DNA from: Calothrix sp. PCC 7716
GTDB taxonomy: Bacteria > Cyanobacteriota > Cyanobacteriia > Cyanobacteriales > Nostocaceae
Direction: 5' to 3'
NCBI RefSeq assembly: GCF_019977735.1
Contig: NZ_AP025018.1
Span: forward strand, 7,878,580 to 7,942,579
Length of the DNA stretch: 64,000 nucleotides
The notes beneath the pieces are model-generated. The model saw only the letters and a program-made list of their open reading frames with translations, made no database searches and had not been told where the DNA came from. Shown here piece after piece: positions 2 to 63,933 of the stretch. The position numbers were made by a program, and so were the translations under genes. Position 1 is the first letter of the stretch; each line of letters opens with the position of its first letter.

Positions 2-865
2 ATGAATAAATTATGGGACTGTGTGAAAGCGACGACAGAACGTGCGCTGTCGTGTGGTGCTTTACTATCAATACCGACTAATTACGAGTTTGTCGAGCAA
101 GATGGTGTAGTATTCATGGTGCGGATATTATCGAATCTGGTGCGAAAGGATGAAGCTAAGAAGAAAGAAAAGCAAATAACTCAAAATGCAATTGACTTTA
201 ATCCTTTCCTTCCTTATGAACAAGATTTATGGGTAGCTGACATTTCAGATACTCACGTTTGTATTTTGAACAAATTTAATGTTGTTGATTACCACTTACT
301 TATTATTACCCGCGCGTTTGAGGCACAAGAATCTTTACTAACAGAACGAGACTTTGCGGCAATGTGGTATGCAATGGCTGATTTCGATGGATTAGCGTTT
401 TATAATGGCGGTCAAATTGCAGGTGCCAGTCAAAAGCATAAACATTTGCAATTAGTTCCTTTACCATTGGCTCCTAATGGAACAAAATTACCAATTGAAC
501 CTTTACTTTTATCCGCTTCATTTCAAGGTTCTGTCGGTACAATACCTAAACTTCCATTCGTACATGCATTTACACGCTTAAATCCTGATTGGGTAAAGTC
601 TCCAATTGAAGGTGGTGTCGCTACTTTAAAACAATATCATCACTCACTAAAAGCAGTAGGTTTACAAGATGGCGGCGCCTATAACTTACTAGCAACACGA
701 GAGTGGATGCTCATAATACCGCGACAACACGAATGTTTCGATTCTATATCAGTAAATTCACTGGGTTTTGCAGGCGCCTTACTTGTGCGAAACTCCGAGC
801 AACTTCAACGTCTTAAGGATTATGGACCAATGAATATCCTTAAAAGCGTAGCTATACCTCTTTGA
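2..865 (+). CDS. Ap4A phosphorylase / ATP adenylyltransferase family (HIT-like)
   Basis: Predicted to cleave or form diadenosine 5',5'''-P1,P4-tetraphosphate in the cytoplasm, as in the APA1/APA2 branch of the HIT-like superfamily. Seen: a 287-residue protein with the nucleotidyl-transfer motif HKHLQ at residues 146-150, where the middle His would be the nucleotidylated residue, inside a typical SQKHKHLQLVPLP context. The N-terminal SCGALLSIPT segment and the DISDTHVCILNKFNV stretch are also typical of this family. Length fits (about 280-330). The ATG lies at the second base of the window, so promoter and ribosome-binding site are not visible, but the N-terminus looks complete. The next gene follows after about 120 bp on the same strand. 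Family assignment is firm; the exact substrate (Ap4A or another dinucleotide) is inferred. Confidence 0.85.
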   Translation: MNKLWDCVKATTERALSCGALLSIPTNYEFVEQDGVVFMVRILSNLVRKDEAKKKEKQITQNAIDFNPFLPYEQDLWVADISDTHVCILNKFNVVDYHLLIITRAFEAQESLLTERDFAAMWYAMADFDGLAFYNGGQIAGASQKHKHLQLVPLPLAPNGTKLPIEPLLLSASFQGSVGTIPKLPFVHAFTRLNPDWVKSPIEGGVATLKQYHHSLKAVGLQDGGAYNLLATREWMLIIPRQHECFDSISVNSLGFAGALLVRNSEQLQRLKDYGPMNILKSVAIPL

Positions 866-986
866 AATACTTTGCATTGGCGCCCAAGATTAGAGTAAAG
901 TTAAAAAGTGTAACAAAGTATCAGTTTTACTTTAAGCTTTGAAACAAGCTTTTAACACTTAGCGTTGAAATTCTTATAAAAAGTCC

Positions 987-1796
987 ATGCAAAAAAGTTT
1001 TTGGCGGCGCCTAGGGGCGTTTGTAGGGTTATTATTCTTAGCTGGTTCCATTTGGGTAATGCATCCTGCCGATGCCTTAGCTTATGACAACCCAGAACTA
1101 TTACCAAAAACAGCAACCCCAGTTGTAGACCTAGCCAAAACTCTCACTGATGTCCAAGAAGAGAATTTGGTTAAAGAACTTAATAGTTTTCAAGAAGAAA
1201 CAGGTTGGAAATTACGAGTATTAACGCAGTTTGACCGTACACCTGGTCGGGCAGTTATCAATTTTTGGGGTCTAGATGATAAAAGCATTTTGCTTGTATC
1301 AGATGCTCGTGGTGGTAACATTCTCAGCTTTAGTGTTGGCGATGCAGTGTATGAATTATTACCTCGGACATTCTGGATTGAACTGCAAACCAGGTTTGGG
1401 AACTTGTATTACGTCCGTGAAAATGGGGAAGACAAAGCAATACTCGACACATTAACGACTGTAGAAGGTTGTTTACGTAAAGGTGGTTGTGGCGTAGTAC
1501 CAGGATTACCGCGCGAACAGTGGATTTTAACCTTAATTACATCAGTAATTGGAGGTGTGATTTGCGGTTTTGCAGCACAACCACGTCGTGAAGGTCAAGT
1601 GTTTGCATGGCAGTGGGCATTAATTTTTTCACCTTTATGGGGAATTTTATTTCTTGCCTTTGGTATCGGCCCCGTCGTCACTCGTACAACCGAATGGCTA
1701 CCTTTATTTCGCAACGTAGCAGGTTTCCTAATGGGTGTTATAGTAGCTTACCTCTCACCAGTATTTGGGCGCCCGTCATCAAACGCCGAATCTTAA
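987..1796 (+). CDS. TPM-domain thylakoid/periplasmic membrane protein
   Basis: A 269-residue protein. Residues 1-32 form a signal peptide or N-terminal membrane anchor ending near ADALA. A TPM (formerly DUF477) domain follows at about residues 40-160, starting at the VVDLAKTLTDVQEENL segment. About three hydrophobic segments occupy residues 175-260. Plant and cyanobacterial TPM proteins (the Arabidopsis TLP18.3 type) act at the lumenal side of thylakoid membranes in photosystem II repair and may have weak phosphatase activity; that role is known for relatives and inferred here. The CxxxxGGCG segment near residues 159-167 suggests a short disulfide loop. The gene ends directly at a heptamer-repeat hairpin that separates it from the methylmutase-family gene. 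Confidence 0.8.
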   Translation: MQKSFWRRLGAFVGLLFLAGSIWVMHPADALAYDNPELLPKTATPVVDLAKTLTDVQEENLVKELNSFQEETGWKLRVLTQFDRTPGRAVINFWGLDDKSILLVSDARGGNILSFSVGDAVYELLPRTFWIELQTRFGNLYYVRENGEDKAILDTLTTVEGCLRKGGCGVVPGLPREQWILTLITSVIGGVICGFAAQPRREGQVFAWQWALIFSPLWGILFLAFGIGPVVTRTTEWLPLFRNVAGFLMGVIVAYLSPVFGRPSSNAES

Positions 1797-1866
1797 GTGC
1801 TGAGTTGAAAGTGCTGAGTGCTGAGTTGGAAACTGAGTTAAAACTCAGCACTCAGCACTTTTCACT
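1796..1866. repeat. STRR heptamer array with inverted arms
   Basis: Left arm is built from AGTGCTG/GAGTGCT units and right arm from ACTCAGC/CAGCACT units, so the transcript can fold into a hairpin. The array fills most of the gap between the TPM gene and the cbiC/cobH-type gene and stays open in the reading frame of the latter, which creates a falsely long reading frame. Heptanucleotide tandem repeats of this type are known from heterocystous cyanobacteria. Confidence 0.85.
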
Positions 1867-1909
1867 GATTTACTGTAAGCTTATTGCTGTTGTGCGTTGC
1901 AGAACTCGA

Positions 1910-2530
1910 ATGGAATGGCATATAACTGATGCTCAAAGTCTGGCAATAATTGATAGTGAAATTGGCGACCATGTTTTTTCACCCGCAGAATACGAAATCG
2001 TGAGGCGTGTTATTTATGCCACATGCGATTTTGAATATAAATCATTGCTAAATTTTTCAGAGCGTGCTTTACAATCAGCAGCAGCAGCTTTAGCGGCTCG
2101 CACCACTATAATTGTCGATGTACCGATGGTGCAGGTGGGTATAGCAAATGACATACAAAATACTTTTGCAAATCCAGTATTTTGCAGTTTTGAAGCTGTA
2201 AATAAATCTCAAAACAAAAAAACTCGCGCTGCATCAGGTACAGAATTACTTGCAAAACGATATCCAGAAGGAATTTTTATAGTTGGTCAAGCTCAAACTG
2301 CACTTTCCACACTTGTAGAATTAATAGAGGCAGAAGAAATTAAACCAGCTTTAATAATTGCAACTCCTCCAGGATTTATAAATGTAGACATGATAAAAGA
2401 GGGCTTACGTGAATCACTTGTCCCAAATATTATGATTGAAGGTAGTAAAGGAAACGCAGTAGTTGCCGCAGCAATTGTTGATGGTTTGGTAGATTTAGCT
2501 TGGCAAGCTTACGGGTCTGATGGGAAATAA
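1910..2530 (+). CDS. cbiC: Precorrin-8X methylmutase family (CbiC/CobH)
   Basis: Family enzymes move a methyl group from C11 to C12 of precorrin-8X (or cobalt-precorrin-8) in cobalamin synthesis. The 206-residue protein shows the family hallmarks: a DAQSLAIIDSEI start, ALAARTTIIVDVPMV in the middle, a TRAASG segment, and a C-terminal EGSKGNAVVAAAIVDGL glycine/alanine-rich loop. I chose ATG 1910 because the frame is open much further upstream only by reading through the heptamer repeat; from 1910 the length matches the family (about 200-215). Odd: the segment expected to carry the catalytic His (RVIH in CbiC, RLIH in CobH) reads RVIY, with Tyr at residue 36. This may mark a cyanobacterial paralogue with altered chemistry rather than a dead gene, since the rest is well kept. 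Confidence 0.8.
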   Translation: MEWHITDAQSLAIIDSEIGDHVFSPAEYEIVRRVIYATCDFEYKSLLNFSERALQSAAAALAARTTIIVDVPMVQVGIANDIQNTFANPVFCSFEAVNKSQNKKTRAASGTELLAKRYPEGIFIVGQAQTALSTLVELIEAEEIKPALIIATPPGFINVDMIKEGLRESLVPNIMIEGSKGNAVVAAAIVDGLVDLAWQAYGSDGK

Positions 2531-2538
2531 TAAATCCC

Positions 2539-2605
2539 AGAAACCGGGTTTCTTCTTGATATCTTGCAATAAAAATGACAATTTTGCATAGAAACCCGGT
2601 TTCTT
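2539..2605. repeat. 67-bp palindrome-ended dispersed element, copy 1
   Basis: The element begins AGAAACCGGGTTTCTT and ends ATAGAAACCCGGTTTCTT, with a conserved AT-rich core (GATATCTTGCAATAAAAA then an ATTTTGC block). Each end is itself a palindrome. Three further copies lie at 24736, 32946 and 54101. It sits 9 bp after the methylmutase stop codon, between convergent genes. Confidence 0.85.
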
Positions 2606-2626
2606 CGATGCTTTCTTTGATGAGTT

Positions 2627-3361
2627 CTAATAATCTTCTTCTGTATCCCAATCATCGCGTCTTCTACGTCTCGTATCTTCTTGCGGACGACGACGGCGCC
2701 TTGGTCTATCATACTCGTCATCATCGCGTAAGCGCTTTCCAACTTCTGTAAAAAAGTCTCTTCGTAAATAAGGGTAATCACTTATCCAAATATTGCGATT
2801 AGGAATATATATATCAGTAATTTCTTCAATACGGCTGAGGTCAGCACGATTTGACAACACAAGCATTTCAGCAATTTGACCACGTGTCACAGCTTTATAT
2901 GCTACTTGTAACGGTGCTTGATACTCAGCAGTAAACCCTGTTTCATCCCCAACTTCTAAATTGATACGCTTTTCGCGATTTTCGACAATAACCAACTCAC
3001 CCTTACCATTAACAGTTTCTTGCTTACCTACCAACTCTTCAGTAATCCAAATATCCACGACTCGACCGCGAAAAAAGCCACAATACTTATAACGTCGGCT
3101 TTTACCATTTCGCATACTAGCTTGAAACACAGGCCCCCACAACCAATAAAAAGCGCTAATTAGTCCAAGCACGAATACAAGTGGCCCAAAATTAAGTCCC
3201 AGAACAAACCTTAAAAGTAAAACAACAGCAGCAGCAACTACAGAAATTAATAATCTTTGTAAAAGTTTAGAAAAATTACCCCAATAATATTTGTACTGAG
3301 GTCCAGTCCCGATCAAAGGAATAAGTTGATCAAATTTTTCGCGTGTCAGTGGAATAAGCAT
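2627..3361 (-). CDS. Conserved cyanobacterial membrane protein, unknown function
   Basis: A 244-residue protein starting MLIPLTREKFDQLIPLI. ATG 3361 was chosen over an in-frame ATG five codons upstream because the MLIPLTR start looks like the natural N-terminus. A pair of hydrophobic segments lies at about residues 35-80 (LLISVVAAAVVLLLRFVLGL and LVFVLGLISAFYWLWG). A soluble region follows with a repeated pattern of beta-type strands (residues 95-200). The tail is very basic and acidic, rich in RRRRR and DDDE runs. Relatives are sometimes named phosphate transporter permease without good reason; I recognise no transport or catalytic motif. It converges on the methylmutase gene and lies downstream of dapB on the same strand, separated from it by a heptamer-repeat hairpin. 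Confidence 0.7.
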   Translation of the reverse strand: MLIPLTREKFDQLIPLIGTGPQYKYYWGNFSKLLQRLLISVVAAAVVLLLRFVLGLNFGPLVFVLGLISAFYWLWGPVFQASMRNGKSRRYKYCGFFRGRVVDIWITEELVGKQETVNGKGELVIVENREKRINLEVGDETGFTAEYQAPLQVAYKAVTRGQIAEMLVLSNRADLSRIEEITDIYIPNRNIWISDYPYLRRDFFTEVGKRLRDDDEYDRPRRRRRPQEDTRRRRRDDWDTEEDY

Positions 3362-3369
3362 AATTATTG

Positions 3370-3487
3370 AGTTCAAAGTGCTGAGTGCTGAGTGCTGAGG
3401 AACGGAGTAAGAGTAGAGACCGAATTAATTTGGTCTGTACGGAGTTATGAGTTACCACTCAGCACTCAGCACTCAGCACTCATAACT
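3370..3487. repeat. STRR heptamer array with inverted arms
   Basis: Three GTGCTGA units are followed by about 60 bp of unique sequence and then four or more CTCAGCA units in inverse orientation, giving a long potential hairpin in the gap between dapB and the downstream membrane-protein gene. It could act as a transcript processing or termination structure, but no U-run is visible. Confidence 0.85.
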
Positions 3488-5086: not shown

Positions 5087-5087
5087 T

Positions 5088-7438: not shown

Positions 7439-7574
7439 TCGAAAATAATCATCCTATGGTTATAAAGTTTTGATGGCACATAACAAAAACGTGTGGAAAT
7501 CAACGCTATTGACAGACACATCAATGCAAGAGGGCAAGTTATAATTTTTTAGCGGACGACTATTGTAAACATTT

Positions 7575-7895
7575 ATGACTACCCCTCTTGTACAAGCTTT
7601 TTTTGTGGGCAGAGCTGTCGCTGAAATTCTTAGCGAACGTCTTGAACATACTGTTACTGATGGACTATCGCAACTCGGTAAGTTAGACGCTGAGTTACGC
7701 GAGCAAATGCGCTCGTTTACTGATGAAGTTATGGTTCGTGCCCAAAGCGCATCAAATGCAGCAGGTGCTGGTTTTACTTCTCCAGGTACTTCTGCACAAT
7801 CAGCATCAGTTGATACACAAGCAATGATTGATGATTTACGTGCCGAAATTGCCACATTACGCACTGAACTCCAACGTCATCGCGTTAGTGGTTGA
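7575..7895 (+). CDS. Small conserved cyanobacterial protein with C-terminal coiled coil
   Basis: A 106-residue soluble protein without signal peptide. The N-terminal half is helical and rich in hydrophobic heptads (VQAFFVGRAVAEILSERLEHTV). The middle is a flexible A/S/G/T linker, and the last 25 residues (DDLRAEIATLRTELQRH) form a short coiled coil suited to dimer formation. It resembles small thylakoid-associated or hypothetical proteins found widely in cyanobacteria, but I cannot attach a named function. It is followed by a GTGGGCA-type palindrome and then the UbiB-like kinase gene about 100 bp away, so co-transcription is possible. Confidence 0.65.
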   Translation: MTTPLVQAFFVGRAVAEILSERLEHTVTDGLSQLGKLDAELREQMRSFTDEVMVRAQSASNAAGAGFTSPGTSAQSASVDTQAMIDDLRAEIATLRTELQRHRVSG

Positions 7896-7897
7896 GT

Positions 7898-7920
7898 GTA
7901 GGGTGGGCACTGCCCACCAT
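7898..7920. repeat. Dispersed palindrome, GGGTGGGCACTGCCCACC type
   Basis: GTAGGGTGGGCACTGCCCACC is a near-perfect inverted repeat just after a stop codon. Other copies occur at 36059-36080, 48181-48205 and 58084-58109. Confidence 0.8.
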
Positions 7921-8001
7921 ACAAATTTTACAAACAAGCAAAAAATAACAAAGTATTTTCTCCCTTTAAGATTCAGTTAATCCCAGCGGTATTTAAAGCA
8001 T

Positions 8002-9684
8002 ATGGAAAAAGGATATTCGGATAAGGCATACCGTTGGAATCGCGAGAACTACTCTAGCAGGCGCCGCTTTATAGATATTTGGGGGTTTGTGCTGCTATTG
8101 ATGTATCGCCTTTGGCTGTATAACAAATCTTGGAGTTATCCAGGAGGAGTTAGTGACGCAAAGCAAGCTGCAAGGCGCCGGACTTTAGCGGTTTGGATTC
8201 GCAACACATTACTCGATTTAGGCCCAACTTTTATTAAGGTTGGACAATTATTTTCGACGCGCGCGGATATATTTCCTGCTGAATATGTCGAAGAACTAAC
8301 AAAGTTACAAGATCGTGTTCCAGCATTTAGCTACGAGCAGGTAGAGTCTACTATCGAGAAAGAACTAGGTAAAAAAATTCCTGAACTTTTCCATAGCTTT
8401 GAACCCGTTCCTTTAGCAGCAGCTTCTTTAGGTCAAGTTCATAAAGCGGTTTTACACTCCGGTGAAGCTGTTGTCGTCAAAGTTCAGCGTCCTGGACTCA
8501 AAAAGCTTTTTGAAATTGATTTAAGAATTCTCAAAGGTATCTCGCGTTATTTTCAAAACCATCCTAAATGGGGAAAAGGACGCGACTGGATGGGAATTTA
8601 CGAAGAGTGCTGCAAAATTCTTTGGGAAGAAATCGATTATTTGAGCGAAGGTCGCAATGCCGACGCTTTTCGTCGTAATTTCCGCGATTATGAGTGGGTA
8701 AAAGTTCCTCGCGTTTACTGGCGTTACACCTCTTCTCGTGTACTCACACTCGAATACGCTCCAGGTATAAAAATTAGCCAGTACGAAGCGTTAGAAGCGG
8801 CTGGTTTAGATAGAAAGGTGCTGGCTCGTCAAGGCGCCGAAGCATATTTACACCAGTTACTCGATAATGGTTTTTTCCACGCCGACCCACACCCAGGTAA
8901 TATTGCCGTTAGTCCCGAAGGCGCCTTAATTTTTTATGATTTCGGTATGATGGGACGTATCAAGTCGAACGTGCGTGAAGGCTTGATGGAGACATTATTT
9001 GGCATCGCCTCTAAAGATGGTGATAGAGTTGTGCAGTCACTCATTGACTTAGGCGCAATAGCACCAACCGACGACATGGGTCCAGTCAGACGTTCGGTGC
9101 AGTATATGCTCGATAACTTTATGGATAAACCTTTTGAAAACCAATCGGTTGCCGCCATCAGTGACGACTTGTACGAAATCGCTTATAATCAGCCATTTAG
9201 ATTTCCTGCAACATTTACCTTCGTCATGCGCGCGTTTTCGACGCTAGAAGGTGTTGGTAAAGGACTTGACCCAGAGTTCAGCTTTATGGAAGTCGCTAAA
9301 CCCTACGCAATGCAGCTTATGACTAATACAAATGGTGAGGGCAATAGTTTACTTAACGAACTAGGCCGTCAAGCAGTCCAAGTTAGCAGTACAGCTTTGG
9401 GACTACCGCGTCGTCTCGAAGATACTCTTGAAAAACTAGAACGCGGTGATGTTAGAATGCGTGTTCGCGCTATAGAAACCGAGCGCTTATTAAGGCGGCA
9501 AAGTAACATCCAATTAACTACCACTTACGCGGTACTTATAGGTACTTTCACCCTTTCAGCCTCGATTTTATTGGTTAAAAATTATATATGGGCAGCCGTG
9601 TTTGTTGCTTTAGTCGCGGTCAGCGTATCATGGCTGTTAATTAGGCTTATTTCACGTCTTGACCGTTATGACCGTATGTATTAA
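8002..9684 (+). CDS. ABC1/UbiB-type atypical kinase (AarF family)
   Basis: Members of the UbiB/ADCK family support quinone or isoprenoid lipid metabolism and show ATPase or atypical kinase activity at membranes. The 560-residue protein has the KxGQ motif (KVGQ near 79-82), the alanine-rich loop AAASLGQ near 140 in place of a glycine-rich loop, the conserved lysine in VVKVQRPG near 159, the catalytic HADPHPGNI near 293, and the metal-binding DFG near 313. Two C-terminal membrane helices lie at about 505-550. In cyanobacteria such proteins are linked with plastoquinone or tocopherol metabolism; this is inferred. A phosphatase gene follows 29 bp downstream, suggesting one operon. A second UbiB-like protein is encoded at 29365. 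Confidence 0.92.
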   Translation: MEKGYSDKAYRWNRENYSSRRRFIDIWGFVLLLMYRLWLYNKSWSYPGGVSDAKQAARRRTLAVWIRNTLLDLGPTFIKVGQLFSTRADIFPAEYVEELTKLQDRVPAFSYEQVESTIEKELGKKIPELFHSFEPVPLAAASLGQVHKAVLHSGEAVVVKVQRPGLKKLFEIDLRILKGISRYFQNHPKWGKGRDWMGIYEECCKILWEEIDYLSEGRNADAFRRNFRDYEWVKVPRVYWRYTSSRVLTLEYAPGIKISQYEALEAAGLDRKVLARQGAEAYLHQLLDNGFFHADPHPGNIAVSPEGALIFYDFGMMGRIKSNVREGLMETLFGIASKDGDRVVQSLIDLGAIAPTDDMGPVRRSVQYMLDNFMDKPFENQSVAAISDDLYEIAYNQPFRFPATFTFVMRAFSTLEGVGKGLDPEFSFMEVAKPYAMQLMTNTNGEGNSLLNELGRQAVQVSSTALGLPRRLEDTLEKLERGDVRMRVRAIETERLLRRQSNIQLTTTYAVLIGTFTLSASILLVKNYIWAAVFVALVAVSVSWLLIRLISRLDRYDRMY

Positions 9685-9713
9685 ATGATTGTTTCCGATA
9701 CGTCTAAAAAAAT

Positions 9714-10439
9714 ATGAAAATAAACTATATAGGAGCTAGCGACCCCGGACTTATTCGATTTTCTAATCAGGATGCTTATTATACTGACCCAGAAGGACGA
9801 TTTTTCGTGGTTGCCGATGGGATGGGTGGTCATGCGGGTGGTGAAGAAGCCAGTCGTATTGCCACCCAAGAAATTCAAGCTTATTTAGTCGCAAACTGGG
9901 ATTCAAAAATTCCTTCCGAAAAATTGCTCGAAGAAGCATTACTTCAAGCAAACGAAGCCATTATACGTGACCAACAAAGCCATCCAGAACGTGCCGATAT
10001 GGGCACAACTGCCGTCGTCATACTGTTGCGCGACGCCGACTCACCCTTGTGCGCGCACGTCGGTGACTCCAGATTATACCGCTGGCGAGAACCCAAACTC
10101 GAACAAATTACAGAAGACCATACTTGGGTCGCACGTGCATTAAAAGTTGGTGATATTTCCCCCGATGAAGCGCGTATTCACCCCTTCCGTCACGTACTAT
10201 CACGTTGCCTAGGACGCGAAGATTTACAAGGAGTTGACATTCAACCTCTGAGTTTAAAACCAGGAGACCGCTTGCTGCTATGTAGTGACGGTTTAACCGA
10301 AGAACTAGTCGATGAAAAAATCGCCAGTTACCTCCAAGAAACCTCAATGCTCGACAAAGCAGCTTTCGCGCTCATTGAAGGCGCCAAAGAACAAGGTGGA
10401 CACGATAATATTACCGTCGTATTAGTAGCGCTTGATTAA
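9714..10439 (+). CDS. PP2C-type Ser/Thr protein phosphatase (Stp1/PrpC-like)
   Basis: A cytosolic Mn/Mg-dependent phosphatase that removes phosphate from Ser/Thr residues. In bacteria it usually opposes Hanks-type kinases. The 241-residue protein carries the PPM motifs in order: RFSNQDA near the N-terminus, VADGMGGH (metal-binding Asp and the conserved Gly pair), DMGTTAVV, HVGDSRLYRW, CSDGLTEEL and the final GGHDNITVVLV with the metal-binding Asp-Asn pair. Length is typical for bacterial PP2C (about 240). It lies 29 bp after the UbiB-type kinase gene, an arrangement that suggests co-expression. A Ser/Thr kinase gene lies about 1.1 kb downstream on the opposite strand and is a possible partner. 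Confidence 0.93.
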   Translation: MKINYIGASDPGLIRFSNQDAYYTDPEGRFFVVADGMGGHAGGEEASRIATQEIQAYLVANWDSKIPSEKLLEEALLQANEAIIRDQQSHPERADMGTTAVVILLRDADSPLCAHVGDSRLYRWREPKLEQITEDHTWVARALKVGDISPDEARIHPFRHVLSRCLGREDLQGVDIQPLSLKPGDRLLLCSDGLTEELVDEKIASYLQETSMLDKAAFALIEGAKEQGGHDNITVVLVALD

Positions 10440-10440
10440 T

Positions 10441-10512
10441 ATTGGCAACGGATACAACAGATGTAACGGATGAACTTGCTACAAATCAACCATCCGTTAC
10501 ATCCGTTGCCAA
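10441..10512. repeat. Long nested hairpin after the phosphatase gene
   Basis: GATGTAACGGATG pairs with CATCCGTTACATC (13 bp), and outside it ATTGGCAACG pairs with CGTTGCCAAT (10 bp), leaving a bulged GATACAACA. It starts right after the stop codon and can serve as a 3' structure. Related AACGGAT/ATCCGTT palindromes lie at 31163-31195 and 62874-62906. Confidence 0.8.
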
Positions 10513-10564
10513 TTTGTTCATTTTAAGCATTTTTCATCTTTACAATTTGATACAAAATACATTA

Positions 10565-10588
10565 CCCTCCAAGAATTACCTTGGAGGG
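10565..10588. terminator. Hairpin CCCTCCAAG/CTTGGAGGG, possible terminator
   Basis: A perfect 9-bp stem (CCCTCCAAG with CTTGGAGGG) around a six-base loop, followed by TTAATTATAAC on the plus strand. The A/T-rich flanks are suggestive, but a clean U-run is missing, so termination is only possible. Confidence 0.45.
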
Positions 10589-11017
10589 TTAATTATAACT
10601 TTGTGTGAATTGACATCTTGCTACTTTTACTGTATATCGAATAAAATCGACTTTAATACTCCAAGTCCCTATATTCCCGATATAGGGCACAGGCGTATTA
10701 ACTCATGTTAAATACTGAATCCTTGACTTTTTGCTGTATATAGTGCAAAGTTTACCGAAATATGCCTAGGCAAACTTGGTATATATATTTAGCTAGAAGC
10801 TCAGGAGTGTAAACTAGACGACATTATAGAAAGACAACACAAAATTACCACCTAAAGGAGTGGGCATTTTGTCAAACTCTTGTTATCTTTCGTAATAAAG
10901 AGGCACACAATTAGATTTTATTCCCTCAAATCTAATCAACGGCACCTCGGCTAGTCAGTCTAACTTACTTCACTGTTTTACGTCATCTTCATTATCTTCT
11001 CTATCTGGAGTTATTTT
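10589..11017. promoter_or_regulatory. nblA upstream region
   Basis: About 430 bp of non-coding, AT-rich sequence before nblA. It has another perfect hairpin at 10667-10687 (CCCTATAT/ATATAGGG around TCCCG). nblA genes usually have complex upstream regions that respond to nitrogen starvation. I looked for an NtcA box (GTA-N8-TAC) and found no convincing match, so only the region, not a site, is reported. Confidence 0.4.
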
Positions 11018-19594: not shown

Positions 19595-21640
19595 GTGCAA
19601 AATTTATATTTATATCAAATTGCTTTATTAAGCCTATTGATAGGATTACCAGCATTTGCTGTTGACACAAATCAGCAAGATATTTTCAATCTAAATGAAA
19701 TCAAGTTACCATCACAAGAAGCCAAGTTCTTGACCCAGCAACCTACAAACAATCAGCCTCAAGAAGAATCAAAACCAGAACAACCACCGTCTACAGACGA
19801 TTCAGATATTGACCTAGAAGCGATAGGAGAACAAGACACATTACCGCAATCTACACCAACTTATACTATTGAGAAAGAAGAAATCCAGAAACAAGGCGCC
19901 ACAAGTGTTGCGGATATCTTGAAGCGAATGCCAGGATTTGTCATTAACAACGTTGGACACGGCGCCGACATTCATACAGGAACATATTACCGAGGTGCCA
20001 CACTAAATCAAACAGTGATTTTGATTAACGGTAGACGAGTTGATACTAATGTCAATACTTATCATGGCGCCACAGATTTAAATAGCATTCCAGTAGAAGC
20101 AATAGATCGAGTAGAACTATATAGCGGAACAGCAACATCATTATATGGTTCCTCTGGTTTTGGTGGAGTCGTCAATATCATTACAAAACAAGGTAGTACT
20201 ACCCCTAGATTTAATGCTTCTACAGAATTTGGCTCATTAAATTTAAATAACCAACAAACAAGTTATAGCGGTGGTATCGAAAACGTTAGATATAACCTAA
20301 GCTTTGAACGCTTGTTTATAGACAACCGTTATAGAGTACCTGTCGGCGCCGCAAATAGAGACGCAAGCGGTAATTTATTTAACGCCGATACAGCGACAAG
20401 TACTTACTTTGGTAATCTGGCTGTAGACTTAGACAAAAAAAACACCGTTAACTTAGACGTAAAAGTACTAAGTAGTCGTCGCGGTCTAGTATATTTTGGT
20501 TTTCCATTACAACGAGATAGATTAGACCATGATGGATTAAACATTGGTTTATCATGGAAATCAGAACTAGCAAAAGGTTCTAATTTAACCACTACATTTG
20601 GATACAACCGAGATTATTTTAATACCTACGGACCAACAGGGACATTTTACCGCACAGGAACATTAGACACACAGCAATTTACAGGTAGAATAGAACATGA
20701 TTGGCAAGTCACCTCAAACAATCAACTTCGTTGGGGTTTAGATATAAAAAACACCGACTTAAATAGTCTTGCCGATAGTACGCTACCAAGTCGAATAGCT
20801 TTAAACGAAACCGAAGATAGAAGTTTATTGAATACAGCACTATTTGCCGTTAACACTTTTAATATTAGTGATAATTTTTTATTCGATTTAGGATTACGAC
20901 AAAGCTTTGACTCAGAGTTTGGGAGCTACTTTAATCCAAGCGGAGGATTACGATATGCCATTACACCAAATCTCGCTGTACGTGGTAGTTTAGCTTATGG
21001 ACAGCGTAACCCAGGTTTAGACCAACTATACACATACGACACAGTACATGGTTGGTTGCCAAACGCCAATTTAGAACCAGAAACAGGCACATCTTGGACT
21101 GCTGGCATAGATATTAACATTACCAAAGATATAATCGGGCAATTTACTTATTTTGGCAGCAGTATCGATAATACCCTTAGCGTTATTCGAGGGCAATGGC
21201 AAAATATTGGCTTAGTTGACACCAATGGTTTTGAAGCTGCACTAAGAATGAAAGTCGCGCGTGATTGGTCAACTTTTGTAAACTACACTTATACAGATGC
21301 CCAAGTTAAAACAGGAGCAGATAGAGGTTTACAGTTAGGCTTAATACCCTACTCACTACTTCAAGCAGGTGTTGGATACGAAAAAAATGGCTGGCAAGCT
21401 AACTTATATGCTACCTACAACAGCGGCGCCCGTCGAGCATTATTCGCGGCGCCAGGAGACAGAAACACAGATTTTGTACCCTCTTACTTCAACCTAGACC
21501 TCAGTACCCGCATACCAGTAACATCCAACTTAGGCTTAACATTTTACCTAGAAAACTTATTAGGAGAACAATACGAAAAAGTAAATCGTATTTACAGTCC
21601 CGGTTTCACCTTCCGTGTAGGTTTAACCTCCACCATTTAA
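19595..21640 (+). CDS. TonB-dependent outer-membrane receptor
   Basis: A 681-residue outer-membrane gated porin that imports scarce ligands such as siderophores, heme or cobalamin using TonB energy. GTG start at 19595 has an AGGAGA site 7 bp upstream. Signal peptide at residues 1-23; a variable linker (about 24-85) with P/Q/E-rich sequence; plug domain about 86-200 (SVADILKRMPGFVINNV, RVELYSGTATSLYGSSGFGGVVNII); 22-strand barrel to the end (terminal FTFRVGLTSTI). Unlike many cyanobacterial receptors it has no N-terminal AMIN domain. No TonB, ExbB, siderophore or ABC import genes are adjacent, so ligand cannot be read from context. The paired operator upstream suggests tight regulation. Confidence 0.93.
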   Translation: MQNLYLYQIALLSLLIGLPAFAVDTNQQDIFNLNEIKLPSQEAKFLTQQPTNNQPQEESKPEQPPSTDDSDIDLEAIGEQDTLPQSTPTYTIEKEEIQKQGATSVADILKRMPGFVINNVGHGADIHTGTYYRGATLNQTVILINGRRVDTNVNTYHGATDLNSIPVEAIDRVELYSGTATSLYGSSGFGGVVNIITKQGSTTPRFNASTEFGSLNLNNQQTSYSGGIENVRYNLSFERLFIDNRYRVPVGAANRDASGNLFNADTATSTYFGNLAVDLDKKNTVNLDVKVLSSRRGLVYFGFPLQRDRLDHDGLNIGLSWKSELAKGSNLTTTFGYNRDYFNTYGPTGTFYRTGTLDTQQFTGRIEHDWQVTSNNQLRWGLDIKNTDLNSLADSTLPSRIALNETEDRSLLNTALFAVNTFNISDNFLFDLGLRQSFDSEFGSYFNPSGGLRYAITPNLAVRGSLAYGQRNPGLDQLYTYDTVHGWLPNANLEPETGTSWTAGIDINITKDIIGQFTYFGSSIDNTLSVIRGQWQNIGLVDTNGFEAALRMKVARDWSTFVNYTYTDAQVKTGADRGLQLGLIPYSLLQAGVGYEKNGWQANLYATYNSGARRALFAAPGDRNTDFVPSYFNLDLSTRIPVTSNLGLTFYLENLLGEQYEKVNRIYSPGFTFRVGLTSTI

Positions 21641-51870: not shown

Positions 51871-51901
51871 GGAGTTAGGAGTTAGGAGTTAGGAGTTAGG
51901 A
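51870..51901. repeat. STRR GGAGTTA array
   Basis: Four GGAGTTA units fill the 32-bp gap between the wzc-like stop and the wzy/waaL-like ATG. In the sense direction of these genes it reads TAACTCC, so it does not act as a ribosome-binding site. Confidence 0.85.
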
Positions 51902-51902
51902 G

Positions 51903-54044
51903 TTAAATTTTAGCTTTTATACGTTTCATTTGATAACCGCTCATGGGATAGCGGTAATATTGTTCGGTTTGCGAAGTCATACCATTAACTACGACTCCAA
52001 CAATGGGGATGTGATTGTTATTTAATTCAGAAACTGCACGTTGAAGTACTTCTTTAACAGTGATGTTCGGACGTGTCACCATTAGCACACCTTCGCATTG
52101 TTTGGCTAGGGTGGCTGTGTCGGCACAGGCGCTCAATGGAGGTGTGTCAATTATGACAAAATCATAGTTAGCAGCAGCTTCTGCTATGAGTTTTTTCATG
52201 GCTGCTGATTCTAGTATTTGCGATGGTCTACCGTATATTCCGCCACATGTCAGTACTGAAAGATTTTCAATTTCGGTAGGCTGTACGGCTTCTTTTAAAC
52301 TGATATTTCCTTCGACTATATCGCTAATACCTGGTTTCCCTGGCAGGTTAAAAATTGTGTGTTGTACAGGGCGCCGTAAGTCAGCGTCAATTATTAAAGT
52401 TCGTCGTGATAACATGGCTGATACAGCAGCAAGGTGCGAAGCCACAATAGATTTGCCTTCACCGGAAATAGTACTACTTACTACTAATAGCTGTAGTTCA
52501 GAAGTACGAAATTCAAGTGATTTAAATAGCATTCGATATGGTTCGACTAAAGCGACATTATCGAGAAAACCGTCAGCGGGTTCTAATGCTAATGTTTTAG
52601 CTGGTAAACGTGGTAATACACCAAGTAAAGGTAGTTTGAGTAATTCTTCAGCTTCAGAAGCATCATGTATGGTGTTATCCATTACTTCTAAAAGAATAAT
52701 TACACCAGTTGCTAACAGTAAACCAAAGGCGCCAGCAAGGGCAAGTACAACGTTAGGTTTGGGAGAATTAGCAGTACTTGATGGTTTTGCAGCTTGAATT
52801 ACTTGTAGGTTACTAACTTTTTGCGCTTCGGCGATACGTGCTTCTTCAAATTTGGCTTGTAAAAATTTGAGTGATGCAGCAGCTTCTTCGCGTTTACGAA
52901 TTAAAGCAGTAAGGGGTTGTTGTTGGAGAGGAAGTTGGGTTAGTCGGTTTCGGAGTTGCGCTATATTATTTTGGGTAAGCTGAAGCTTCTCGGCAACTGC
53001 CGCTCTTTCAATTTCATTTGTTATGAGTTGAGATGTTAAATCTTGGCTAATTGGGTCGCCAGCTATATTATTATTTGAATTGTTGGCCCCAGCTCTTGGA
53101 GCGACACGTGCGAGTTCTTGGGCATAAAGACTGCGGAGAGCATCGCGAGAAAGCAACATTTTAACGACAGTAGGATGACTATCGGTAAATTTTAATCGAG
53201 CCTCGATAAGTTGAGTCTCTTGCTCGGTAAGTTTAGCACGCAATTTTTGCAGTTCTTGGTCTTGACCACCGCGAACAGATTCATATGCCGTATCAAGTCC
53301 TTGAGCTTGGGTTACTTGACGCAACGAGTCAAGGCGTGAATTTGCTTCTTTAAGTTGTGTTGCAAGAGTACGCTGTTGGTCTTCAAGGGATGCAACACTT
53401 TGAACAAGGCTTTTGGTTTGTTCGTCAAAATCGACGATGCTACTTTGCTGACGATAATTATTTTCCGCCGCTTCTGCTGCTTGAAGTTGGGTTCGCGCTT
53501 GCGGTAGCTGCTGCTGTAAAAATTGGCGAACTTTGGTAGCTTCAGAACTTATCGATTTAATGTTATCGCGAATCGTCGCCATTGCTACGGCATTTGCATA
53601 TGCGGCAGCAAGGTCTGGATTCTTTGATTGATAACTAATTTCGAGAATATTTGTAGCAGGAATAGTTTTGACTCTTATTCCTCCACTTAATTCATCGACA
53701 GTAAGTTTAGTTGACCCATTTTGCCCATCCTCAGAATTTTCTACATTAGAATTTCCAACTATCGCTAATGCTTGAGTAAGAATCCGTTCAGACTTAATTA
53801 ACTCCGCTTGATTTGCGAGAGGGCTATTTCCTGGACTACTTACTGATGTTTGTGATAAGTCACGTCCTAATTCAGAAACACTCGTTCGTCTATCATCAAA
53901 TATTAATCTTGATGAGCTTTCATATAGGCGCGGGGTTACTTTCAAATAAGCTACCGCTCCACCAATTACCGCAGTAAAAGTAATTAAAGCAGGTAAGCCA
54001 CGCCGTTTTAAAACTGACAATACTGACCAAAAGCCCTTTTCCAT
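51903..54044 (-). CDS. Polysaccharide co-polymerase / BY-kinase (Wzc-like)
   Basis: A 713-residue inner-membrane protein. Wzz domain with first helix at about 16-33 (LPALITFTAVIGGAVAYL), a long periplasmic coiled coil (about 150-385, Q/E/R-rich), second helix about 430-450 (VVLALAGAFGLLLATGVIILL), then a cytosolic tyrosine-kinase domain: Walker A STISGEGKS (about 523-531), Walker A' LIIDADLRRP, Walker B FVIIDTPP. The C-terminal tail has a small Tyr cluster (EQYYRYPMSGYQ) for autophosphorylation. Such proteins control chain length and export of Wzy-dependent polysaccharide. It is next to the Wzy/WaaL-like gene, with GT genes on both sides. Confidence 0.94.
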   Translation of the reverse strand: MEKGFWSVLSVLKRRGLPALITFTAVIGGAVAYLKVTPRLYESSSRLIFDDRRTSVSELGRDLSQTSVSSPGNSPLANQAELIKSERILTQALAIVGNSNVENSEDGQNGSTKLTVDELSGGIRVKTIPATNILEISYQSKNPDLAAAYANAVAMATIRDNIKSISSEATKVRQFLQQQLPQARTQLQAAEAAENNYRQQSSIVDFDEQTKSLVQSVASLEDQQRTLATQLKEANSRLDSLRQVTQAQGLDTAYESVRGGQDQELQKLRAKLTEQETQLIEARLKFTDSHPTVVKMLLSRDALRSLYAQELARVAPRAGANNSNNNIAGDPISQDLTSQLITNEIERAAVAEKLQLTQNNIAQLRNRLTQLPLQQQPLTALIRKREEAAASLKFLQAKFEEARIAEAQKVSNLQVIQAAKPSSTANSPKPNVVLALAGAFGLLLATGVIILLEVMDNTIHDASEAEELLKLPLLGVLPRLPAKTLALEPADGFLDNVALVEPYRMLFKSLEFRTSELQLLVVSSTISGEGKSIVASHLAAVSAMLSRRTLIIDADLRRPVQHTIFNLPGKPGISDIVEGNISLKEAVQPTEIENLSVLTCGGIYGRPSQILESAAMKKLIAEAAANYDFVIIDTPPLSACADTATLAKQCEGVLMVTRPNITVKEVLQRAVSELNNNHIPIVGVVVNGMTSQTEQYYRYPMSGYQMKRIKAKI

Positions 54045-61197: not shown

Positions 61198-62862
61198 ATG
61201 CCTGAAAGTAAGTCAAAATTTTTAATCCCAGCGATAGGTGCTGCGGCTGTAGCAGTTGGTGGTATTGCTGCCTACATGTATTTTTTCAAGGGTCCTTCTG
61301 GTGATAGTTCTGGCGCCATAGCGAGCGCGCGGGTAGTTCCAGATGACGCACTAGTAGCCACATATATAACAACTGACCCACAAGCTTGGTCTAAACTGTC
61401 GCAGTTTGGTACACCAGAAGCTCAAAAAGTTGTATCTAATTCATTAGAAGCTTTTAATAAGACAACATTAGCTGATGGTAATATTTCATACGAAAAAGAC
61501 TTAAAGCCTTGGATAGGTGGTGTAATGGTAGCGCTTCTACCATCACCACTAAAACCGACTCAAACAACCCCTCAAGCAACCCAAGAACCAAACGTTTTGA
61601 TGGTAGTTGGCATTAAAGATAAAGTTAGCGCTTTAAATCTTGCAAATCGCTTAAAATCGCAAAAAGACGTAAAAAGCCAAGAAATTGATTATAAAGGTGA
61701 AAAAATCACCGAAACCCAAGGACAGGGTAAACCTACATACAGCGCTATTGTAAACAATAATAATTACTTAGTATTCTCCCAAGATAAAAGAGCCATCGAA
61801 CAAGCTATAGATACCGTTAAAGGCGAACCCTCATTTGCGAGTAAACAAGGCGCCAGCGAAATTTTTAACAAAGGTGTCGATGTTCAAAACGCAGTTGCTC
61901 AAATATATGTGCCAGATTATGCCAGTATGTTTGAGCAATTAATCAAAAATAGTTCTCAAGCAACACAGATACCTCGCCAAACTTTAGACCAGTTAAAGCA
62001 AGTTAAATCAATGGTTGCAGGTATTGGCATTGATAATGAAGGCGTGCGGATGAAAGCTGTAGCGAACATTGACCCCAAACTTTTAAAGTATAAATATGAA
62101 CCAAGTTCTTCTAAAATAGTTTCTCAGTTCCCAGCAAACACACTCGCTTTGGTCAGTGGGCAAGGAATTAGCCGCTGGTGGAAAGCAGTTAGCGAAGAAT
62201 CTAAAAATTATCCAGAACTAAACCAAGCACTTCAGCAAGCGCGGGGACAACTTCAATCTGTAAGTCTAGATTTAGACAAAGATGTTTTTGGTTGGATGGA
62301 CGGCGAATTTGGATTAGCAGCAATACCTTCTGACCAAGGAGTTTTAGCAGGTTTTGGATTTGGTGGCGCCTTTGTATTTGACACAAGCGACCGCAAAACA
62401 GCCGAAGCAACTTTTTCAAAAATCGACAATATAGTTAAAACACAAAACGTAAATGTGCAAGCGCGTAAAATAGGTGATAGAGACATAACCGAATGGCAAA
62501 TACCCAACCAAGGTGGACTACTAGCACATGGTTGGCTTGACCAAGACACAGTTTTTATCGCATTAGGTGGCCCCATCGCCGATACCCTTGCAGTTCAAAG
62601 CAAACAGCCATTAGACAATAGCGACTCATTTAAAGCCATCACAGGGTCATTACAAAAGCCCAACGGTGGATACTTATATATAGATATGGATAAAACCATG
62701 TCGATAGTCAACAAATTCGCAACCGCAGCAGCTCCAATACCACCCGTCACAGCAGCAATTCTCAACTCAATTCGTGGAATAGGGATAACAGCCAATAGTA
62801 ACAACGAATCAACAACCCAAATGGAAATGTTGTTATCACTCAAACCAAAAACTCCAAAATAG
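61198..62862 (+). CDS. DUF3352-family membrane-anchored protein
   Basis: A 554-residue protein with an N-terminal membrane anchor (about 8-30, FLIPAIGAAAVAVGGIAAYMYFF) and a large extracytoplasmic part. Family features: VVPDDALVATYITTDPQAWSKLSQFGTPEAQK, PWIGGVMVALLP, NNYLVFSQDKRAIEQAIDTV, and ALVSGQGISRWW. DUF3352 proteins are widespread in cyanobacteria without an assigned function. No enzyme motif is seen; beta-rich ligand-binding or structural role is possible. A hairpin with AACGGATGAGT/ACTCATCCGTT follows the stop. Start ATG 61198 follows AAGGAT. Confidence 0.88.
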   Translation: MPESKSKFLIPAIGAAAVAVGGIAAYMYFFKGPSGDSSGAIASARVVPDDALVATYITTDPQAWSKLSQFGTPEAQKVVSNSLEAFNKTTLADGNISYEKDLKPWIGGVMVALLPSPLKPTQTTPQATQEPNVLMVVGIKDKVSALNLANRLKSQKDVKSQEIDYKGEKITETQGQGKPTYSAIVNNNNYLVFSQDKRAIEQAIDTVKGEPSFASKQGASEIFNKGVDVQNAVAQIYVPDYASMFEQLIKNSSQATQIPRQTLDQLKQVKSMVAGIGIDNEGVRMKAVANIDPKLLKYKYEPSSSKIVSQFPANTLALVSGQGISRWWKAVSEESKNYPELNQALQQARGQLQSVSLDLDKDVFGWMDGEFGLAAIPSDQGVLAGFGFGGAFVFDTSDRKTAEATFSKIDNIVKTQNVNVQARKIGDRDITEWQIPNQGGLLAHGWLDQDTVFIALGGPIADTLAVQSKQPLDNSDSFKAITGSLQKPNGGYLYIDMDKTMSIVNKFATAAAPIPPVTAAILNSIRGIGITANSNNESTTQMEMLLSLKPKTPK

Positions 62863-62873
62863 GCAATGGATAC

Positions 62874-62906
62874 AACGGATGAGTAATAATAAATAACTCA
62901 TCCGTT
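62874..62906. terminator. Hairpin AACGGATGAGT/ACTCATCCGTT
   Basis: A perfect 11-bp stem with an AT-rich 11-base loop right after the DUF3352 stop codon, related to the nested hairpin at 10441. A short U-run is lacking, so termination is inferred from position only. Confidence 0.5.
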
Positions 62907-63015
62907 ACATCTGTTTATTCACATACATGCTTTTTTAACTTTTTGATGAAGCGGCTTTAGATTAGGATTGATTTTATTGAGATTTTACATCCTCGTCGTC
63001 AAAGAACCGAATTTT

Positions 63016-63933
63016 ATGACTGCTGCGCTTAAAAACACTCCAGATATAGCATCACGTTTAGTAAACAGGGTACTAGCGATTAAACCATTGGCTCACTTTG
63101 CCAAACACCAAGCGCGTCAAATGATGATAAAACGCGCGCATGAACTTGGTGTACCCTGGAAAAACGAAGTTGACACATTAAAAGCCCGTGACTGGCAATC
63201 TGATCTAGTTCAAGTCAAAAATCCCGATTTATCATACCCAGAGTATTATCTAACTTCTTTTCATGCTTACGAAAGTGGTAATATGAGTTGGTTAGCAGCT
63301 TTTGAAGTCGAATCTGCTGCATATGCTGTCCATGCAAAAATCTGGCAAGATGCAGGTGCCCAAGGTGATACAAAACTGCGCCAAAATTATCACAATATTC
63401 TTAAAAAGCATATACCAAACCCACCTCAAACTATTCTCGACATCGGGTGTAGTGTTGGTATGAGTACTTTTGCACTGCAAGATTTATATCCAAACGCACA
63501 AGTTACAGGTTTAGATTTATCACCTTACTTTTTGGCTGTTGCTCATTATCGCGCGCAGGAACGACAAAGCAAAATTAACTGGGTTCATGCAGCAGCAGAG
63601 TCAACTGGTTTACCTGATGCTTCGTTTGATTTAATTTCAATATTTCTTGTTTGTCACGAATTACCACAAACTGCCACAAAACAAATTTTTGCTGAAGCGC
63701 GAAGGCTACTACGTCCGAACGGTCATTTAGCAATAATGGACATGAATCCGAAGGCAGAAGCGTTTAAAATGATGCCTGCTTATGTATTCACGTTGCTCAA
63801 AAGTACAGAACCTTATTTAGACGATTATTTTGGCTTGGATATAGAACAAGCATTAATTGAAACAGGTTTTACGGCGCCTGTCATTGCTTCTAATAGTCCT
63901 CGTCACCGTACTATTATCGCTAAAGTTGTATAA
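63016..63933 (+). CDS. Class I SAM-dependent methyltransferase
   Basis: A 305-residue enzyme; ATG 63016 (MTAALKNTPDIASRLVN) was preferred over a TTG 16 codons upstream. An N-terminal helical region of about 125 residues (RQMMIKRAHELGVPWKNEV, DLSYPEYYLTSFHAYE) precedes the methyltransferase core. Motif I TILDIGCSVGMSTFAL, acidic loop VTGLDLSP, FDLISIFLVCHELP (motif II) and RLLRPNGHLAIMDMNP (motif III). This two-part form is common in cyanobacteria (Methyltransf_11/25 with a long N-terminal extension). Substrate unknown; it may act on a lipid or quinone-like molecule, by analogy with UbiE-type relatives only. Confidence 0.88.
   Translation: MTAALKNTPDIASRLVNRVLAIKPLAHFAKHQARQMMIKRAHELGVPWKNEVDTLKARDWQSDLVQVKNPDLSYPEYYLTSFHAYESGNMSWLAAFEVESAAYAVHAKIWQDAGAQGDTKLRQNYHNILKKHIPNPPQTILDIGCSVGMSTFALQDLYPNAQVTGLDLSPYFLAVAHYRAQERQSKINWVHAAAESTGLPDASFDLISIFLVCHELPQTATKQIFAEARRLLRPNGHLAIMDMNPKAEAFKMMPAYVFTLLKSTEPYLDDYFGLDIEQALIETGFTAPVIASNSPRHRTIIAKVV

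Follow-up and report, generated by a model that had tools for sequence, protein, structure and literature searches.

GGCGCC sites within the window

The window analysed here, a stretch of 64 kb from the 12.37 Mb genome of Calothrix sp. PCC 7716 (G000), has a G+C content of 38.8% (from base counts) and contains 89 GGCGCC sites by direct count. The initial annotation had estimated nearly 90 sites by eye, with only about four expected, and both figures are borne out: expectation is 3.4 sites from base composition, 5.4 from a first-order and 4.4 from a second-order Markov model, and 200 first-order simulations of the window yield a mean of 5.4 and a maximum of 13. The excess amounts to 16-fold. 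A fourth-order Markov model predicts 42.7 sites and half-explains the count because the pentamers GGCGC and GCGCC are already part of it; the observed number is still twice as high. Classical HIP1 (GCGATCGC), which had likewise been reported as not seen, occurs in 0 copies, and the iterated word of the window is not HIP1 proper. The features are:

674..63878, no strand: set of 89 GGCGCC sites (direct count; composition and Markov expectation)
674..679, no strand: first GGCGCC site of the window (direct count)
21425..21430, no strand: GGCGCC site (direct count)
21448..21453, no strand: GGCGCC site (direct count)
62365..62370, no strand: GGCGCC site within the ORF of a DUF3352 protein, 61198-62862 (direct count)
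63873..63878, no strand: last GGCGCC site of the window (direct count)

The sites start at positions 674, 773, 879, 1006, 1768, 2695, 4217, 4389, 4804, 4877, 6560, 6851, 8060, 8174, 8833, 8920, 10380, 12194, 12417, 13440, 13577, 13772, 14711, 15866, 17203, 17573, 17864, 17944, 18673, 19030, 19199, 19895, 19961, 20066, 20345, 21425, 21448, 22207, 22584, 22851, 23103, 23289, 23481, 23695, 24015, 24334, 24439, 24514, 28910, 29441, 30284, 30653, 30883, 32518, 33811, 34315, 34743, 35830, 38661, 40396, 43024, 44924, 45218, 45348, 45576, 45973, 46707, 47473, 47684, 48013, 49183, 49546, 49765, 50118, 50320, 50995, 52370, 52728, 54565, 55141, 55994, 57523, 58575, 59571, 59639, 61312, 61849, 62365 and 63873. 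Six of the seven positions quoted as examples in the initial annotation are exact; the site given at 21424 in fact starts at 21425.

As had been claimed, the sites are located mostly in genes, both strands and all three frames being represented: 83 of 89 lie within a set of 48 ORFs (100 aa or longer, without overlaps), with a frame split of 50/19/14 in which the Gly-Ala frame is commonest. For the other gene-based counts, genes were ORF calls of at least 150 aa, without annotation. GGCGCC encodes 703 of 1,392 Gly-Ala pairs, so that the sites exploit synonymous freedom. Gly-Ala codings one base off the word, except GGTGCC, are found at 0.25-0.66 of expectation, and those two bases off at 0.65-1.88, some being as low as the one-off forms. 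GGTGCC is enriched, 1.40-fold over first-order expectation and 2.46-fold at Gly-Ala pairs. The one-off coding GGGGCC also includes the avoided word GGCC.

Replacement of HIP1 throughout the genus

The whole genome carries 20,380 GGCGCC vs 7 copies of the reversed control word CCGCGG, a calculated density of 1,648 per Mb that lies inside the range of about 1,000-2,000 per Mb expected of a highly iterated palindrome (HIP). Over 1.02 Mb, 1,627 sites were counted, 20-fold above first-order expectation. HIP1 is present in 66 copies in 12.37 Mb vs 64 for its reversed control word, as expected where an alternate HIP is in use. No Markov model comes to about 90 sites in the window and the genome total is far from expectation, which confirms GGCGCC as a palindrome iterated genome-wide far above composition and Markov expectation.

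The comparison set comprised seven congeners and 210 other genomes of the same family; the genus is the one that includes Dulcicalothrix desertica PCC 7102 and Calothrix sp. PCC 7103 (G061). All seven congeners contain 7,475-20,380 GGCGCC per genome (calculated density 1,150-1,711 per Mb), vs at most 1,053 in each of the 210 others. HIP1 occurs 31-163 times in the congeners vs 37-75 for the reversed control, with G064 showing as much as 4 times its control, and exceeds 1,100 copies in all but 4 of the 210. By these counts, the replacement of HIP1 by GGCGCC that was proposed from the window is genus-wide. GACGTC is rare in all seven congeners (38-78 per genome), and both GACGTC and GACGCC are rare where GGCGCC abounds. 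Within G000, a second contig also bears sites (29 in 20 kb, L028), and two accessory regions contain 49 and 54 in 20 kb (L025, L020). In another family, f9, a moderate GGCGCC excess was observed in G377 (3,403 sites vs 13 for the control), in G224 and in three genomes of genus g90.

That GGCGCC acts as an alternate HIP is already published: Elhai (2015; PMC4390886) reports it for Calothrix sp. PCC 7103 and, from 19 kb only, for Calothrix D253. The present case is alike in the word, the near-loss of HIP1, the low GATC and the kind of methyltransferases. There, however, one genome and 19 kb of another stood as a sporadic exception, whereas here seven species are concerned. The data add the genus-wide extent and indicate that many copies were kept in place over evolution, with site-level conservation and a decay footprint (see below). 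Among openly readable papers, Elhai (2015) was the only report found on GGCGCC as a HIP or in Calothrix; later reports may exist. Like HIP1 of most cyanobacteria, GGCGCC is a GC-rich palindrome of about one copy per kb, but both the word and the methyltransferase differ, and HIP1 itself is near background in G000. HIP1 was described in 1995; Elhai (2015; PMC4390886) links it to orphan methyltransferases and still treats its function as an open question.

A candidate methyltransferase and the footprint of C-to-T decay

A candidate enzyme was found outside the window:

G000:C1:10,950,497-10,951,501: candidate DNA cytosine-5 methyltransferase (PF00145 / dcm profile over cut-off)

Comparison with PDB entries only places it among the C5 methyltransferases, alongside M.HaeIII and M.HhaI; its NCBIfam match gives no target specificity. 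The initial annotation had suggested a search for a solitary methyltransferase, and the candidate appears to be an orphan at its locus, with a GHL10 gene and a RuBisCO-like gene as immediate neighbours; the latter adjoins the enzyme in six of the seven congeners. In a survey of the best nine or fewer first-look candidates per genome, to which any statement of one copy or none refers, members of the enzyme clade (83-100% identity) were found in 7/7 congeners and 0/210 other family genomes, and the seven form one clade in the tree (support 100/99). The seven congeners may represent a single evolutionary event, so that this co-distribution counts once. Relatives at 54-73% identity, some partial, occur in 55 of the 210 genomes. 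They would be of the GRCGYC type, a specificity assigned in PMC4390886. In these 55 genomes the GGCGCC count is just 0-277 per genome, against thousands in the genomes with the genus clade. Residues shared by all seven enzymes but uncommon among 33 others occupy only 5 positions; with so few diagnostic residues, no change in target recognition is pinned down. Depletion of GACGTC was dropped as a discriminator of two methyltransferase types, since the word is rare in all seven congeners; its rarity speaks neither for nor against a GRCGYC specificity.

The suggestion that the iterated site may mark a methyltransferase target gains support from this co-distribution and from the pattern of decay. 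Where G000 has GGTGCC or GGCACC, a C stands at the T place in 14/22 cases in G061 vs 25/363 for other NGTGCN, and in 16/26 vs 60/446 in G063. This is also the one-off form most often found opposite GGCGCC (11/22 in G061, 14/26 in G063). At Gly-Ala sites, C3-to-T changes number 28 vs 7 for C6-to-T when summed over six relatives, a sum that mixes overlapping branches; by relative, C3:C6 is 11:1 in G061, 9:2 in G063, 5:0 in G064, 0:0 in G065 and 0:1 in G062, the contrast being absent in G060 (3:3). Lone-codon controls (GGC-to-GGT/GCC-to-GCT) are similar in G061 (0.178/0.147) and G063 (0.325/0.305) and differ in G062 (0.046/0.156) and G064 (0.485/0.300). C3-to-T is not absolutely faster than C-to-T at other C (7.1% vs 5.2-8.1% in G061); the case for the inner C stands on the contrast of C3 with C6. 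Decay mainly via GGTGCC points to methylation of the inner C, and GGCGCC is apparently tied to this one cytosine-5 methyltransferase clade.

Site conservation and possible mechanisms

Conservation between relatives, a check proposed at the outset, was assessed on BLASTN blocks with a minimum of 400 bases and 74% identity, assigned one-to-one by best score; the 20 kb queries L025 and L020 aligned poorly to most relatives and were left out of site-turnover counts. Gly-Ala sites outlast matched codons. Their synonymous third positions are kept in 133/149 cases in G061 vs 0.565 predicted as the product of lone-codon rates (p 5e-18), in 90/114 vs 0.247 in G063 (p 7e-34) and in 114/122 vs 0.682 in G060 (p 3e-11), p-values which are not independent because the relatives have branches in common; G065 (33/35 vs 0.726), G062 (26/28 vs 0.764) and G064 (8/17 vs 0.152) complete the set. 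These larger codon-matched counts are preferred over a smaller, window-only sample, in which sites and control hexamers differ in retention by no more than 0.09 for five of the six relatives. In G063, retention is also high for some control hexamers made only of G and C (0.53-0.80 by CpG class vs 0.695 for GGCGCC). In the polarised comparison, whole sites are not clearly lost less often than other hexamers, 24/230 (10.4%) vs 11.5% and 15/192 (7.8%) vs 9.3%; a smaller polarised set gives 15/110 (13.6%) vs 11.1% for all and 15.9% for GC-rich hexamers. Non-coding sites show no clear conservation: they are kept in 11/15 and 11/17 cases vs 296/434 and 230/427 controls, and a third comparison gives 6/7 vs 115/257 (p 0.05).

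We lean towards the explanation that GGCGCC is a maintained, methylation-linked alternate HIP of the genus, its methylation, enzyme specificity and function being predicted. By parsimony, the word would have taken the place of HIP1 before the genus radiated, and would have been kept since. The orphan methyltransferase may methylate the inner C of both strands (GG-mC-GCC) in sites at long-lived, mostly synonymous positions; decay of the methylated C to T would yield GGTGCC or GGCACC, after which the site might be restored or the decayed copy purged. The marks would most likely serve the recognition of strand or self during mismatch repair or related DNA transactions, a role already suggested for HIP1; the repair or segregation role raised in the initial annotation is likewise hypothetical. 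Points against this explanation include the excess in G377, for which, as for G224 and the three g90 genomes, no close enzyme relative was found, and the assignment of the enzyme's relatives by Elhai (PMC4390886) to GRCGYC, not strictly GGCGCC; the polarised losses, the non-coding sites, the well-kept all-GC controls in G063 and the absolute C3-to-T rate given above also count against it.

The main alternative is the mutational ratchet of Elhai (2015; PMC4390886). In that model, a GRCGYC methyltransferase present twice in the genome directs a mismatch repair dependent on GmC, and this repair skews new mutations in favour of GGCGCC up to a density of roughly one per kb, the sites needing no function. 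Site densities in the seven congeners lie within the published range, GACGTC and GACGCC are rare, one-off Gly-Ala codings are depleted (though some two-off forms are as low), and the T footprint fits the inner-C methylation that the model requires. However, the saturation expected at about 1 kb was not seen: Gly-Ala site use is flat (0.52-0.59) with a neighbouring site at 100-1,600 bp and drops only when another lies within 50 bp (0.31), a comparison in which local differences in load could mask a weak effect of distance. G060 and G064 each have one match of the enzyme family at E 1e-60 (best 9 of 21 and of 14 candidates scored), the latter flagged for one TGA in a locus that nevertheless has an open frame of 327 aa, yet their densities are 1,701 and 1,150 sites per Mb, so that the requirement for a second copy seems not to hold. 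The polarised comparison shows 0 gains vs 24 and 15 losses, although precursors are few (22 lineage-hexamers in the smaller set). Moreover, exceptional HIPs were held to be sporadic and non-persistent (PMC4390886), whereas this one lasts through a genus. We consider the ratchet unlikely.

Selection of the sites as marks for DNA uptake or segregation, with incidental methylation, would agree with their synonymous conservation and their presence on the second contig and in accessory regions; over 1.02 Mb, however, the sites are spaced almost at random (CV 0.96) except for depletion below 100 bp, and the palindrome carries no direction. We regard this reading as quite improbable. Even less credible is very-short-patch repair, by which a Vsr-like nuclease would return T:G mismatches in GGTGCC to GGCGCC. 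The frequent pairing of GGTGCC/GGCACC with GGCGCC would fit, but the Vsr family profile has no match in G000 (the control matched in 5/14 genomes) and GGTGCC is enriched, the wrong sign; Vsr-type repair was rejected as largely contradicted. An artefact of composition or codon use is refuted. The fourth-order model yields about half of the count, but when synonymous codons are shuffled, the three frames are expected to hold 15, 10 and 9 sites, as opposed to the 282, 107 and 165 counted; the use of amino-acid pairs barely changes (Gly-Ala ratio 1.09), and the excess is missing from the 210 other family genomes.

With seven species sequenced, a clade in which word and candidate enzyme changed jointly offers a natural experiment. 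To our knowledge, the function of HIP1 is still open today, and this genus could separate an effect of the word from an effect of the methyl mark and allow selection to be tested against a ratchet. Persistence throughout the genus weakens the argument of PMC4390886 that alternate HIPs are sporadic in origin and short-lived. It is conceivable, if on balance doubtful, that maintenance as epigenetic marks, and not a repair ratchet, accounts for HIPs in general, the word having switched from HIP1 with a new orphan m5C methyltransferase and the marks having since been held against m5C decay, at long-lived synonymous positions, for as long as the genus has existed; G273 (family f8) would then represent a second, independent switch, with an enzyme relative and a different GCGC-centred word. 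In G273, HIP1 occurs 0 times in 50 kb, GCGC-centred words are iterated, and a methyltransferase of the same family (L002) is present at 55% identity, which the congeners G223 and G251 lack at that level. Unlike in G000, iteration concerns AGCGCC and GGCGCT, with 110 and 124 copies (20 expected for each), as well as GGCGCC, with 106 (31 expected), at a G+C content of about 54% and in another family.

Replacement of HIP1 by GGCGCC in Calothrix sp. PCC 7716

The hexamer GGCGCC occurs 89 times in the window by direct count, with 3.4 sites expected from composition, 5.4 from a first-order and 4.4 from a second-order Markov model; 200 first-order simulations gave a mean of 5.4 and a maximum of 13. 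The initial annotation, which counted nearly 90 by eye and expected about four, is borne out, and its site coordinates are exact apart from one shifted by one base. The excess extends over the genome: 711 versus 37 expected (first-order) in a 464 kb sample made up of the window and twenty 20 kb stretches, 1,627 versus 81.5 in 1.02 Mb, and 20,380 versus 7 for the reversed word CCGCGG in all 12.37 Mb. HIP1 (GCGATCGC), the usual highly iterated palindrome (HIP) of cyanobacteria, is missing from the window (0 sites), as first noticed, and stands at background in the genome (66, reversed control 64). The iteration of GGCGCC is real, and was correctly read as taking the place of HIP1.

Synonymous codon shuffling predicts 15, 10 and 9 sites per frame; 282, 107 and 165 are observed. 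Gly-Ala pairs as such are scarcely more frequent (ratio 1.09). In 1.02 Mb, 703 of 1,392 such pairs are coded GGCGCC, 75-fold above the level of codings two bases away; of the 619 Ala-Pro positions able to carry the word, 358 do so. The excess outside ORFs of at least 150 aa (158 versus 6.9 expected) is as strong as that inside (554 versus 30.6).

Distribution among relatives and a candidate methyltransferase

Elhai (2015; PMC4390886) describes two Calothrix strains, PCC 7103 and D253, in which GGCGCC serves as an alternate HIP. As PCC 7103 is a congener of PCC 7716, the core phenomenon is already published, and our strain is a further species showing it. Among open-access full texts, nothing beyond that paper was found to join GGCGCC to the HIP phenomenon; later reports are possible. 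Added here are genus-wide persistence, an enzyme clade, codon-level conservation and a decay footprint. The six congeners are:

G060, Dulcicalothrix desertica PCC 7102
G061, Calothrix sp. PCC 7103
G062, Calothrix sp. HK-06
G063, Calothrix sp. NIES-4105
G064, C42_A2020_038 (MAG)
G065, FI2-JRJ7 (MAG)

Across 217 genomes (56 genera) of the family, GGCGCC numbers 7,475-20,380 in all seven genomes of the genus and at most 1,053 in the other 210. HIP1 numbers 31-163 in the genus (reversed control 37-75) and exceeds 1,100 in all but four of the others (G182 30, G194 535, G191 574, G184 990). Across the genus, aligned sequence differs by up to about 20% at the nucleotide level (G064, 80% identity), so that the swap from HIP1 to GGCGCC is not recent. 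In G182 (88% complete), the 30 HIP1 sites in 3.2 Mb are accompanied by 15 GGCGCC, a low HIP1 count without replacement by GGCGCC.

The order was surveyed in 388 genomes of 149 genera, including three congeneric genomes and a further 68 from the family. Family f9 shows a weaker GGCGCC excess of up to 3,403 (control 13). Five of its genomes (G377, G224, G252, G274, G398) hold 1,031-3,403 sites, with 10-38 for the reversed control, and nothing closely related to the genus enzyme described below was found in these five; their excess is perhaps another, weaker alternate HIP. G346 (872, control 9) is the sole genome of family f21 with a weaker excess; it carries a homologue of the genus enzyme at 61%, and the remaining f21 genomes listed have 15-430 sites.

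The C5 methyltransferase family has 16 matches in PCC 7716, fragments among them. The candidate enzyme is:

G000:C1:10,950,497-10,951,501, putative GGCGCC methyltransferase, 335 aa

Among the best nine candidates per genome, counterparts at 83-100% identity occur in 7/7 genomes of the genus and in 0/210 others of the family; relatives at 54-73%, some partial, occur in 55 of these 210, where GGCGCC numbers 0-277. The seven genus enzymes form a single clade (support 100/99; tree of 40 rows). A RuBisCO-like gene adjoins the enzyme in six of seven genomes and a GHL10 neighbour is seen in five of seven within the available flanks; the G062 enzyme adjoins a partial paralogue instead. The early suggestion that GGCGCC may mark a methyltransferase target has thereby gained an enzyme clade co-distributed with the GGCGCC load and of putative specificity; methylation of the word and a function of its sites are likewise putative.

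Two GRCGYC-type methyltransferases are described in PCC 7103, and a second copy was suggested to be critical (Elhai, 2015; PMC4390886). A second methyltransferase type (L004, L008; 56-61% identity) exists in some congeners and is absent at E 1e-60 from the best nine candidates of G060 and G064. Yet these two genomes carry 1,701 and 1,150 GGCGCC per Mb, so that, contrary to this suggestion, a second copy seems unneeded.

Conservation, decay and spacing of sites

Comparison between relatives, proposed in the initial annotation as a check, gave a divided answer. Both synonymous cytosines of in-frame Gly-Ala sites (GGC GCC) are kept above the product of the lone GGC and lone GCC rates:

Retention of both synonymous cytosines (relative; kept; control)
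G060; 114/122; 0.682
G061; 133/149; 0.565
G062; 26/28; 0.764
G063; 90/114; 0.247
G064; 8/17; 0.152
G065; 33/35; 0.726

Whole-site losses polarised with G063, on the other hand, are about as common as changes in other hexamers (24/230, 10.4% versus 11.5%; 15/192, 7.8% versus 9.3%). Certain all-GC control hexamers are likewise well kept, and the few non-coding GGCGCC sites are not clearly retained above GC-rich hexamers. Neither polarised comparison yielded a site gain (0 in each). Taking these results together, with few precursors sampled, we read the sites as probably old and at lasting places, with transient decay.

The only one-off form in excess is GGTGCC/GGCACC (1.40-fold in 464 kb; 2.46-fold among Gly-Ala codings). 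In PCC 7716 it stands opposite C in G061 in 14/22 cases versus 25/363 for other NGTGCN, and in G063 in 16/26 versus 60/446. Within Gly-Ala sites, changes to T at the third base (C3) and the sixth (C6) number 11:1 in G061, 9:2 in G063 and 5:0 in G064, an excess missing in G060 (3:3) and G062 (0:1); the lone-codon equivalents change at similar rates in large samples. The simplest reading is that C3 may be a mutable, methylated cytosine. As its absolute rate of change to T is no higher than that of C elsewhere, this reading rests on the contrast with a protected C6.

In the ratchet model, methylation-guided repair biases mutations toward GGCGCC until its range of about 1 kb is saturated with sites (Elhai, 2015; PMC4390886), and a potential site close to another should hence be occupied less frequently. 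The realised fraction is 0.31 below 50 bp, 0.50 at 50-100 bp and 0.52-0.59 at 100-1,600 bp from the next site; 0/13 are realised beyond 1,600 bp, where potential sites perhaps lie in foreign DNA. The effect is short-range only: at the distances that the model predicts, the course from 100 to 1,600 bp stays flat, although a weak effect could be masked by unevenness in local load.

That GGCGCC is a maintained, methylation-linked alternate HIP of the genus appears modestly probable on these sequence comparisons. A broader proposal, that HIPs are maintained epigenetic marks and that the lineage switched its word with a new methyltransferase, G273 being an independent second switch, is tentative and rather doubtful. 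The polarised losses and the best-nine scoring of candidates slightly lower the odds of both. G273, of another family (G+C about 54%), holds 9,489 GGCGCC (control 2,450). In 50 kb it has no HIP1, 106 GGCGCC versus 31 expected, and 110 AGCGCC and 124 GGCGCT (expected 20 each). It carries a relative of the genus enzyme (55% identity), which has no counterpart at this level in G223 and G251, two congeners of G273, and which long branches make hard to place in the tree. Judged from 50 kb and two congeners, a second switch is possible.

Other over- and under-represented words

Another palindrome in excess is CGCGCG (227 versus 32 expected in 464 kb; 6.2-fold in 1.02 Mb), which is also enriched in samples of the six relatives (3.6- to 10-fold). 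In 1.02 Mb, GATC is at 0.13 of expectation and TGCGCA is almost missing (1 versus 231). CCGCGG, GTGCAC, GCATGC, CCATGG, GTCGAC, CGTACG and AGGCCT are at 0 in 464 kb (first-order expectation 27-100 each), and such absences suggest past exposure to many restriction systems. The 20 kb stretches L013, L017 and L024 hold 14-16 GGCGCC each, about half the usual load, and are perhaps recently acquired DNA; L013 contains three HIP1 sites. One tandem array of the window matches dozens of loci in this genome and its congeners, and three others are comparable:

16961-17175, heptanucleotide array (17000-17118 GAGTTAG; 17117-17173 AGCACTC)
29264-29337, comparable array
35055-35088, comparable array
51871-51905, comparable array
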